Notes under the pieces: model-generated
Told to the model about the DNA's origin: nothing
What the model saw: only the letters and a program-made list of their open reading frames with translations
Databases searched by the model: none
Assembly: GCA_016214465.1 (NCBI GenBank)
Contig: JACROI010000025.1
Location: 1 to 37,954, forward strand
Source: Candidatus Magasanikiibacteriota bacterium
GTDB lineage: Bacteria > Patescibacteriota > Patescibacteriia > Magasanikbacterales > UBA10003
Direction of reading: 5' to 3'
DNA length: 37,954 bases
Part shown: piece after piece, positions 1,564 through 35,935 of the stretch
Layout of the letters: each line of letters starts with the position of its first letter
Numbering within the stretch: the first letter of the stretch is position 1
Translations under genes and position numbers: made by a program

Positions 1564-1600
1564 GTCATTGCGAGCGAAACGAAGTGGAGCGTGGCAATCT
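1564..1600. repeat. Half copy of a palindromic repeat (GTCATTGCGAGCGAAACGAAGTGGAGCGTGGCAATCT)
   Basis: Shares GTCATTGCGAG...GCAATCT with copies at 10541-10632 and 35431-35505. Confidence 0.75.
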
Positions 1601-1634
1601 AGAATTACTCTAATTGTACCCCAATCTCACCCCC

Positions 1635-2218: not shown

Positions 2219-3226
2219 ATGAAAAAAATGCCGGACAATCAAATAACTTTCTATCAATCACCGGACGGCTCGGTGAATATTGAAGTATTATTTGCCGAAG
2301 AGAACATTTGGCTAACTCAAAAAAAAATGGCTGAACTTTTTAGCATTGACAGAAGCGTGGTCACAAAACATCTTAAAAATATCTTTAGCGAAAAAGAAAT
2401 TGAAGAAAAATCAGTTAGTGCAAATTTTGCACATACTGCCGAAGACGGAAAAACTTATGAAACACAATTTTATTCCCTCGAAGCCATTATAGCGGTCGGT
2501 TATCGCGTGAATTCCGAGCGCGGTACGCAATTTCGTCAATGGGCCACGAGAATTTTAAAGAATTATATCCACAAGGGTTATACTTTAGATGTTAATCGGA
2601 TGAAATATGGCTCTCGCTTTAGCACTAGATATTTTGACGAGCTTTACGAAGAAATCAAAGATATCCGCACGAGCGAACGGATTATTTATCAAAAAATAAC
2701 TGACATTTACGCGACATCGATTGACTATTCGCCCAAAGCGTATGAGAGCAAAAAATTTTTTGCTACGGTGCAAAACAAACTTCATTTTGCCATAACCGGT
2801 AAAACCGCGGCAGAAATTATCACGAATCGCGCCAACAGCAAAAAAGACAAAATGGGATTAACTTCGTGGAGACGCTCTCCGCATGGGAAAATAATGCCGA
2901 GCGACACGGTGATCGCCAAAAATTATTTGGACAAGAAAGAAATAGAGCACCTGAATCGCATCGGCAATATGTATTTGGATTATGCCGAGATGCAAGCGGC
3001 GCGAGGCAAAGCGATGTCAATGAAAGATTGGACGGAAAAACTCAATGCCTTTCTAAAATTCAGCGAATACGAAATTTTGACAAATGCCGGCAAAATCAGT
3101 CGCGAGGTGGCGGAGGCGTTGGCGCTAAAAGAATATGAAAAATTTAGAAAAATTCAAAATAAAAACTATATATCCGATTTTGACCGCGAGGTTAAAAAAC
3201 TTTTAAAATCTAGAAAAGACAGATAA
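2219..3226 (+). CDS. rhuM: RhuM-family protein (Virulence_RhuM)
   Basis: FYQSPDGSVNIEVLFAEENIWLTQKKMAELFSIDRSVVTKHLKNIF...QFYSLEAIIAVGYRVNSERGTQFRQWATRILKNYIHKGY...HFAITGKTAAEII is characteristic of the RhuM family. Confidence 0.92.
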   Translation: MKKMPDNQITFYQSPDGSVNIEVLFAEENIWLTQKKMAELFSIDRSVVTKHLKNIFSEKEIEEKSVSANFAHTAEDGKTYETQFYSLEAIIAVGYRVNSERGTQFRQWATRILKNYIHKGYTLDVNRMKYGSRFSTRYFDELYEEIKDIRTSERIIYQKITDIYATSIDYSPKAYESKKFFATVQNKLHFAITGKTAAEIITNRANSKKDKMGLTSWRRSPHGKIMPSDTVIAKNYLDKKEIEHLNRIGNMYLDYAEMQAARGKAMSMKDWTEKLNAFLKFSEYEILTNAGKISREVAEALALKEYEKFRKIQNKNYISDFDREVKKLLKSRKDR

Positions 3227-3286
3227 TCATCCCCCGCGAAAGCGTGGGTAGAAACAAAATTCGGCTTACGAGCAAATCAAAGACAA
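3217..3286 (+). pseudogene. Duplicated rnpB 3' tail, distal copy
   Basis: AGACAGATAATCAT...AGAAACAAAATTCGGCTTACGAGCAAATCA...AGACAA; 30 nt identical to rnpB (2037-2066 = 3250-3279), with flanking structural similarity. Confidence 0.9.
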
Positions 3287-3288
3287 TT

Positions 3289-3320
3289 CAACAACGCCTC
3301 CGGAATCGGAGGCGTTGTTG
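3289..3320 (+). terminator. Second rnpB-type terminator hairpin, perfect 14-bp stem with GAAT loop
   Basis: CAACAACGCCTCCG-GAAT-CGGAGGCGTTGTTG, homologous to the hairpin at 2075-2107. Confidence 0.75.
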
Positions 3321-3433
3321 TTTATAAAATAAAAAGACAATCATCTAGACATATGTTTGTTGCACACAGTCGAGACAATGGTTAGAAGTTATTGACCAAT
3401 CACTTGAGCAGAGATCACAGGCATACAGAATCT

Positions 3434-9913: not shown

Positions 9914-11017
9914 TTAAATCAGTTTTCGTATTTTTTTTATTTGCTGAAATAATTTATACACTTTCGGCTGGAACGGCAGTTCGTAAGCGCCGGCAAAACT
10001 GTGCGTCTCTCCGCCAAAACCGCGCTTAAAACGGGTAATCCCGGTCCAGCTCGTTTTAAAATCAAAATCATTTTCATCATCCGGATTAATTCCCCCAAAA
10101 TCATAATAATGATAACCGTTCTGTTTGGCAAATTGAATCGCTTGCCAGTGCAAAAAATATGGAGCCATTAAATCGCGGCATTCTTTGGAAGATGCGCCGT
10201 GAACATAAATGAACGAATCGCCGAAACCGATAAAAATGCCGCCGGCTAACATTTTGTCTTGATAATTTACTAACAAAAGACGACAAACGGGAATTTGTAA
10301 CATTAATTGATAATATTTTTTTGCGTGTAATTTGATTTTATCGCGGCGAGAGGTTTCTTTCATCAAATTCCGAAAAACATCAAACCCAGTTTTACTGTCA
10401 CTGAATTTCAAATCTTTTTTTTCCGCCAATCGGATATTGTATCTGGTTTTTTGATGCATTTCCGTGAGTAATTGCTCTTCGGATTTGTTCAAATCCAACA
10501 ACAAGGTATGCGTCGGCTGAATGGAAGGCACTCGGTAATGCGTCATTGCGAGCGACCCCGACGGCAGTCGGGGAGCGTGGCAATCTCGTATATTATCAGG
10601 ATTGCTTCGTCGCTCCGCTCCTCGCAATGACGATTCTTGCGTCGTTTGTTCACTAAAATGGGGCTCAAACCGAAAAAAAACATGCCCATAATTAACAATA
10701 TTTTTTTTAATAAATTCAAACAATCTATTTATTCCTGGTTCATTATCGTTGGAGATTCCTCGCTCCGCTCGGAATGACAAGAAAAAAATCGGCCCGCGCG
10801 GACAATACAAATAACCCATTCCAAAGCCCAAATAATGTTCAATAATTTGCGCAACGCCAATTAATTCCATGCTGTCAAACACGCCAACACGCCACACTCT
10901 TCGGCCAAATTCCTTTTGAAATTCTCCCCAATCCCATGATTGCAAAAACTGGGCATGCGATTGCCCAGCCACAAATTTATTCCATTGTTCTTTATCATCA
11001 ATCAATCGGCATTGCAT
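9914..11017 (-). CDS. FemAB-family aminoacyltransferase (peptidoglycan bridge formation, GNAT fold)
   Basis: FLQSWDWGEFQKEFGRRVWRVGVFD, GMGYLYCPRGPIF, LLTEMHQKTRYNIRLAEKKDL, YYDFGGINPD, KRGFGGE. Contains two repeat-derived insertions. Confidence 0.87.
   Translation of the reverse strand: MQCRLIDDKEQWNKFVAGQSHAQFLQSWDWGEFQKEFGRRVWRVGVFDSMELIGVAQIIEHYLGFGMGYLYCPRGPIFFLSFRAERGISNDNEPGINRLFEFIKKNIVNYGHVFFRFEPHFSEQTTQESSLRGAERRSNPDNIRDCHAPRLPSGSLAMTHYRVPSIQPTHTLLLDLNKSEEQLLTEMHQKTRYNIRLAEKKDLKFSDSKTGFDVFRNLMKETSRRDKIKLHAKKYYQLMLQIPVCRLLLVNYQDKMLAGGIFIGFGDSFIYVHGASSKECRDLMAPYFLHWQAIQFAKQNGYHYYDFGGINPDDENDFDFKTSWTGITRFKRGFGGETHSFAGAYELPFQPKVYKLFQQIKKIRKLI
10541..10632. repeat. RPE-like palindromic repeat, full copy, inside the FemAB-like gene
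   Basis: CGTCATTGCGAG ... CTCGCAATGACG perfect terminal arms; encodes SSLRGAERRSNPDNIRDCHAPRLPSGSLAMT in frame. Confidence 0.88.
10751..10778. repeat. Half copy of a related palindromic repeat inside the FemAB-like gene
   Basis: GGAGATTCCTCGCTCCGCTCGGAATGAC; encodes SFRAERGIS in frame. Confidence 0.7.
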
Positions 11018-35430: not shown

Positions 35431-35505
35431 GTCATTGCGAGCAAAGCGAAGCAATCTCGTGATCCAAATATGAGATTGCTTCGTCGCTTCGCTCCTCGAA
35501 ATGAC
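35431..35505. repeat. RPE-like palindromic repeat, full copy, intergenic
   Basis: GTCATTGCGAGCAAAGCGAAGCAATCTCGTGATCCAAATATGAGATTGCTTCGTCGCTTCGCTCCTCGAAATGAC. Confidence 0.88.
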
Positions 35506-35524: not shown

Positions 35525-35935
35525 TTATTCTTGGTCTTTCTTTTTCGCGCCCATCCAGTGCAAAGCAAACAAAGGCAAGCCAACCACAATCATGGAAATG
35601 TCCCGCACCAAATCCTGTTCGCGTTGAGCCAGACGGTCTTCCTCGGCTCTTTTTTTGTTTTCCGCTTCTTGCTTTTCGCAATCTTCTTTGGAAATCGGCG
35701 TTACCTCGGGCGCTGTTTTAACATTGGGATCTTTTATTGCCGCCACTGGCACATTGCAAGACATTGCCTGATAATAAGAAAAATTATCAGCGCGTTTAAA
35801 AATATACATCCTCAATGCTGTATTGACCAAATCAGCCAAAGAAAAAACGACCATCATTAAGGCCACGAAAGAGACCAGATAAAAATAGATTTTTTTGATC
35901 AACAAAATTTTGTTTATCGCGCCGGCATTATCCAT
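35525..35935 (-). CDS. Hypothetical membrane protein (DUF5671-like)
   Basis: IKKIYFYLVSFVALMMVVFSLADLVNTALRMYIF and a second C-terminal hydrophobic segment. Confidence 0.65.
   Translation of the reverse strand: MDNAGAINKILLIKKIYFYLVSFVALMMVVFSLADLVNTALRMYIFKRADNFSYYQAMSCNVPVAAIKDPNVKTAPEVTPISKEDCEKQEAENKKRAEEDRLAQREQDLVRDISMIVVGLPLFALHWMGAKKKDQE

Follow-up and report, generated by a model that had tools for sequence, protein, structure and literature searches.

Hairpin repeats resembling CGTC-tagged REPs lie in frame inside single-copy genes of a Candidatus Magasanikiibacteriota bacterium

The genome of this bacterium (826 kb, 97.6% complete) carries many copies of a short hairpin repeat, some between genes and others in frame within conserved genes. 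These repeats are very likely non-autonomous REP-like elements, a divergent relative of the CGTC-tagged REP super-family, which have multiplied here and inserted both within genes and between them, with the in-gene copies persisting in loops that tolerate them. This reading draws on the number of copies, covariation of the hairpins, the in-frame placement of copies in conserved genes present only once, orthologues without the segments and gains in both lineages, all as judged from sequence. The copies discussed for the window, that is, the whole stretch of 37,954 nucleotides analysed here, are listed below with the FemAB-like gene; the repeat units were placed by sequence.

9914-11017, minus strand: FemAB-like ORF of 367 aa with both segments in frame (Pfam PF02388, E 1.1e-44)
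10542-10587, plus strand: first unit of a dimer, with GTCATTGCGAG, the variable stem CCCCGAC/GTCGGGG and GCAATCTC
10598-10631, minus strand: inverted partner of that unit, GTCATTGCGAG...GCAATC, completing a dimer whose tags both point outward
10753-10778, minus strand: single unit of the ATTCC/GGAAT subfamily, encoding SFRAERGIS
1564-1601, plus strand: single unit overlapping 1568, where the sugar-transferase-like ORF 129-1568 has its first in-frame ATG
35431-35457, plus strand: one of the two units of an intergenic dimer, which has tRNA-Gly on one side and the end of the 35525-35935 ORF on the other
35472-35505, minus strand: second unit of the intergenic dimer, with one stem base mutated and the tag GTCATTTCGAG

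The original prediction held that a palindrome at 10541-10632 adds a peptide, in frame, to the FemAB-like protein, and this is borne out. The segment has a predicted fold of -46 kcal/mol (z = -5.8), matched by none of 200 shuffles, and encodes SSLRGAERRSNPDNIRDCHAPRLPSGSLAMT, residues 129-159, exactly as given. It consists of a 90-nt inverted hairpin pair (10542-10631), in frame and stop-free. The second segment, SFRAERGIS, likewise reads in frame as residues 81-89; the repeat at 10751-10778 had been described as a half copy, and here the in-frame repeat stands, but it is a complete unit of a sister subfamily (ATTCC/GGAAT) and not half of the other palindrome. An alignment with FemAB homologues, which had been proposed as a check, revealed that both segments are absent from them. 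All residues invariant among 12 homologues fall outside the two segments. The loop at site 2 measures 49 residues here and 16-27 in 28 homologues, and that at site 1 measures 40 residues here, 21-38 in the 28 homologues and 26 in a congener (G001). The congener's protein lacks both host segments, and a CCT/AGG-type unit (CATCCTGAG...AGGAT, encoding CHPERSEG) occupies the loop of the host dimer. The loop position of the segments is read from the homologue alignment only; a single-sequence AlphaFold2 model of the protein had a pLDDT of 38.6, too low to interpret, and viral contigs, searched for relatives to deepen the alignment, contributed one locus. In a FemAB homologue from another genome (L045), the site 1 loop carries CLPAGR, encoded by a CTGCC/GGCAG palindrome; different palindrome families thus use one FemAB loop.

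The two further copies that had been predicted, between genes at 35431-35505 and near the start of the 129-1556 gene, are both real, the former with one tag mutated. The ATG at 1556 is probably the true start of the sugar-transferase-like ORF, which would place the unit at 1564-1601 just upstream of it. Allowing at most one mismatch, the window contains six sites matching GTCATTSCGAG (1.06 expected; none of 100 shuffles reached six), and exact tags number 77 across the host genome, compared to one for the reversed control. Grouping the units found in host stretches around tag sites gave 92 units in 59 elements, a count restricted to the surroundings of exact tag matches and excluding decayed copies elsewhere. 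Elsewhere in the window, a RhuM-like ORF (2219-3226) is flanked by near-identical direct repeats of ~80 nt (2034-2114 and 3247-3329), each with a terminal hairpin, which are possible ends of a mobile unit.

Copy number is patchy across the class, ranging from 0 to 189 per genome; the congener has 16 tags and a member of the same family (G002) has none. A pattern that allows gaps and fixes 22 bases matched records labelled Chloroflexi, Bacteroidetes, Proteobacteria, Omnitrophota, Nitrospirae, Planctomycetota, Gemmatimonadetes, Elusimicrobia, Armatimonadetes and Patescibacteria, among others, many of them metagenome bins, which may be mislabelled or hold the wrong sequences. Rfam families gave no match down to E 1 for 10400-10900, and searches for the repeat DNA and its peptides in a partial literature collection, which does not include the original Rickettsia papers and is thus no proof against a prior report, returned nothing relevant. 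Two host dimers on one contig (C13, 23720-23795 and 39011-39086) are identical over their full length and in their immediate flanks, with differing neighbour genes, and represent either a recent duplication or an assembly repeat. In one copy-rich genome (G144), many copies (L272-L289) form part of a more extensive repeat, TAGAAAAATACCCACGCG...ACTACTTATCCACTTTTTCT, which seems to be a larger miniature element into which the unit was incorporated.

The units follow the layout (T/C)GTC-AT-NNN-GAG-[variable interior]-N'N'N'-AT-C(T/C). They are hairpins of ~26-60 nt, used singly or as inverted pairs, in which a 5-bp outer stem is followed by a GAG bulge and then by 8-46 nt of interior that include a further, variable stem. 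The NNN/N'N'N' positions take six forms: TGC/GCA (62), TCC/GGA (9), TCT/AGA (5), CGC/GCG (3), CCC/GGG (2) and CCT/AGG (1). The exact complementary partner is present in 82 of the 92 units, whereas a mismatched partner, taken from another subfamily, fits in only 5 of 460 comparisons. The interior usually forms a second stem whose sequence varies from copy to copy; its mean longest run of pairs is 3.52, compared to 2.69 after swapping of the 3' halves (sd 0.12, maximum 3.0), and across 234 units from many genomes the interior fold energy averages -3.33 kcal/mol, compared to -1.92 kcal/mol for swapped halves. Given that both stems pair better than swapped or mismatched partners, it is the tag and the pairing that are kept. 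Among 80 units, the first bases are TGTC in 58, CGTC in 12, AGTC in 8 and GGTC in 2, and the 3-nt tail is CTC in 47, CTT in 20 and CCA in 2. Neighbouring units form 21 pairs with tags outward, four in tandem and none with tags inward. A second palindrome, CCTGCCTGCCGGCAGGCAGG, lies within the interior of about nine units and encodes CLPAGR in proteins (host loci L061, L062, L065, L071, L073 and L076), as if a small palindrome had entered another.

Short hairpins, dimers with outward tags and patchy copy numbers are also the style of classic GTAG-type REPs and REPINs, non-autonomous elements amplified as hairpin units and inverted dimers by a RAYT, a Y1 tyrosine transposase. A resident or recently lost RAYT could have mobilised the host repeats in the same way, and Y1 transposases are indeed loosely associated with them, being present in 14 of 20 copy-rich and 9 of 20 copy-poor genomes. 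We nevertheless regard this explanation as improbable: the tag reads (T/C)GTC and not GTAG, Y1_Tnp, and with it any cognate RAYT gene flanked by the repeats, is missing from the host genome, Y1_Tnp is likewise missing from five further copy-rich genomes (six in all), and of 20 Y1 loci from relatives only two lie within 500 bp of a unit.

As anticipated, genome-wide copies are numerous and often in frame in coding sequences: in the host stretches around the tags, 31 of the 59 elements lie within ORFs of 200 aa or longer, 25 ORFs in total. Elements are found in ORFs less often than chance would place them there, with 27 of 52 inside when a margin of 40 residues is required on both sides, compared to 66% of random segments. 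TGC-type units lie in ORFs more often in the host (18/43) than at loci of other organisms (16/132), a difference (Fisher p = 8e-5) that is indicative, the two sets having been sampled differently. Going by the translated sequences, in-gene copies are expected to lengthen loops of single-copy proteins by 9-33 amino acids. FemAB alone among the named carriers was identified by Pfam; from reading their sequences, we recognise among the others LeuRS, ValRS, MnmA (with two), LepA, RecJ, GatA, TsaD, QueA, an Elp3-like protein, an RluD-like protein, Lgt and an RfbD-like protein. When 14 fragments, drawn from 13 of the carriers, were searched against the host genome, each gene was found once. In a few N-terminal cases, such as that of an AlaRS-like ORF, translation may in fact begin downstream of the element.

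In-gene units use all three sense frames (4, 7 and 9 units) and two antisense frames (23 and 4), and the sixth, antisense, which would read the TGA of AATGAC, is never used. We also considered that the element might be specially stop-free and dropped the idea, as its 2.8 open frames compare to 2.7 in dinucleotide shuffles. Stop-free frames are thus no commoner than base composition predicts and give no sign of an element adapted for coding; that it can code at all seems to follow from that composition. An alternative is that the inserts are transcribed and then skipped by the ribosome, adding no peptide. Such translational bypassing has a reported precedent in the palindromic elements of Magnusiomyces mitochondria, as cited in PMC6649704, and the strong hairpins predicted in the mRNA would suit it. 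However, bypassing needs neither a kept frame nor the absence of stops, and the in-gene copies have both (in part by construction, long ORFs being a search criterion); moreover, inspection of the 26 elements that are not in long ORFs showed no recognisable gene interrupted by any of them. Bypassing is therefore highly improbable.

We compared the host with the congener (G001, same genus) and the family-mate (G002, same family) at 14 in-gene segments, which belong to 13 proteins; FemAB was treated separately. With the exception of LeuRS, the segments are absent or swapped for ordinary loop sequence in the orthologues of one or both. The LeuRS dimer is common to host and congener, differing at several bases, and is absent from the family-mate. 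In Lgt, the same loop holds a different unit in the congener, and a MurC-like protein contains a unit in the congener and none in the host. The LeuRS of Parcubacteria GW2011_GWB1_42_6 (L208), 41% identical, has three such elements, one of them in the same loop and in another frame; a further stretch of this protein, VIPAQAGIQ...LDPRFHGDD, has the look of a relative of the Neisseria dRS3 unit. Absence from most orthologues and gains in both lineages indicate that the insertions are mostly recent relative to the genus and repeated, and that they revisit tolerant loops. An exact empty site or target duplication could not be defined against the congener, which is too diverged (the FemAB and Lgt loops differ on both sides), and copy-rich G144, tried as another source, offered no usable site, many of its copies lying inside the longer repeated unit. 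Distant homologues conserving the segments as protein were not found. That the segments are ancestral variable loops, alike by convergence or low complexity, is scarcely credible: they do sit in loops of variable length among homologues, and the FemAB and Lgt loops of the congener are replaced and not simply shorter, but the same hairpin is found, as DNA, in intergenic positions and, within unrelated genes, in five reading frames, a diversity of frames that refutes this reading, and it is the DNA pairing and not the amino acids that is kept.

An enzyme acting in trans most likely recognises the hairpin and would mobilise the units. Out-of-frame insertions and insertions into protein cores would be removed by selection, and the in-gene survivors would be those copies that keep the frame, are without stops and lie in tolerant loops. 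These segments would then be translated as extra loop pieces, presumably with little effect on the enzyme. A broader proposal, which we offer tentatively and consider rather doubtful, is that a hairpin-recognising mobility system other than RAYT spreads units across many phyla, keeping tag and pairing as the stem drifts or is rewritten, and that through it some Patescibacteria continue to acquire new protein loops in essential genes on a considerable scale.

CGTC-tagged REPs are without a known transposase (PMC3733652), and the host and its congener constitute a dense natural experiment: single-copy genes have received recent in-frame insertions by the dozen, both lineages show gains, and the units fall into six subfamilies. 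That the stems of these subfamilies have changed together points to selection or copying acting on the hairpin. The mobilising enzyme thereby becomes searchable by co-occurrence. It is also notable that a streamlined genome tolerates so many added peptides in its translation enzymes, and annotation and phylogeny can both be led astray by segments of this kind.

Several known systems resemble the host repeats to different degrees. Coding palindromes in Nematomorpha mitochondria (PMC6649704) are likewise inverted repeats within coding sequence, but they are long, perfect and found in mitochondrial genes, whereas the host's are a dispersed family of short hairpin units. Another is RPE1 of Rickettsia (Ogata et al., 2000), which, as cited in PMC6649704 and PMC2229807, is a palindrome found in frame in many unrelated conserved genes and read as an added peptide. 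The host repeats share this behaviour; their units are shorter, modular and different in sequence. RPE1 itself is not the match: its protein model TIGR01045 finds nothing at E <= 1 in the host genome, and six repeat peptides have no match in NCBIfam. The parallel with Rickettsia palindromic elements drawn in the original prediction is instead supported through RPE-4 and RPE-6 of Rickettsia conorii, which belong, like Neisseria dRS3, to the CGTC-tagged REP super-family and have its main features in common with the host repeats (PMC3733652); we consider the host repeats closely parallel and probably related to both. Members of this super-family carry a CGTC or TGTC tag, have AT first in the stem, form dimers with tags outside, have no known transposase and sometimes lie inside genes (Di Nocera et al., 2013; PMC3733652). 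The host repeats agree in the terminal, unpaired CGTC or TGTC (70 of 80 units), the complementary AT at the first and second stem positions (82 of 92 units, the search pattern itself having demanded AT on the tag side), tags-outside dimers (21, compared to 4 tandem and none inside), the lack of an associated transposase gene (Y1_Tnp class only) and the presence of some in-gene copies. In contrast, the described families, four in number and spread over five phyla that do not include the host, have an 8-9 bp stem, a 4-5 nt loop and a 3-nt tail that is mostly CCA (PMC3733652), whereas the host repeats have a 5-bp outer stem, a GAG bulge, a second hypervariable, covarying stem and a CTC or CTT tail. 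Tag, AT and dimers thus fit and stem and tail do not, which makes the host repeats a divergent relative of the super-family and a member of none of its four families. In-gene CGTC-tagged REPs have been reported before, in Rickettsia and other species, including the recB genes of two Xanthomonas species at about the same site (PMC3733652); the phenomenon is therefore not new, and what is new is the host group and the anatomical detail.
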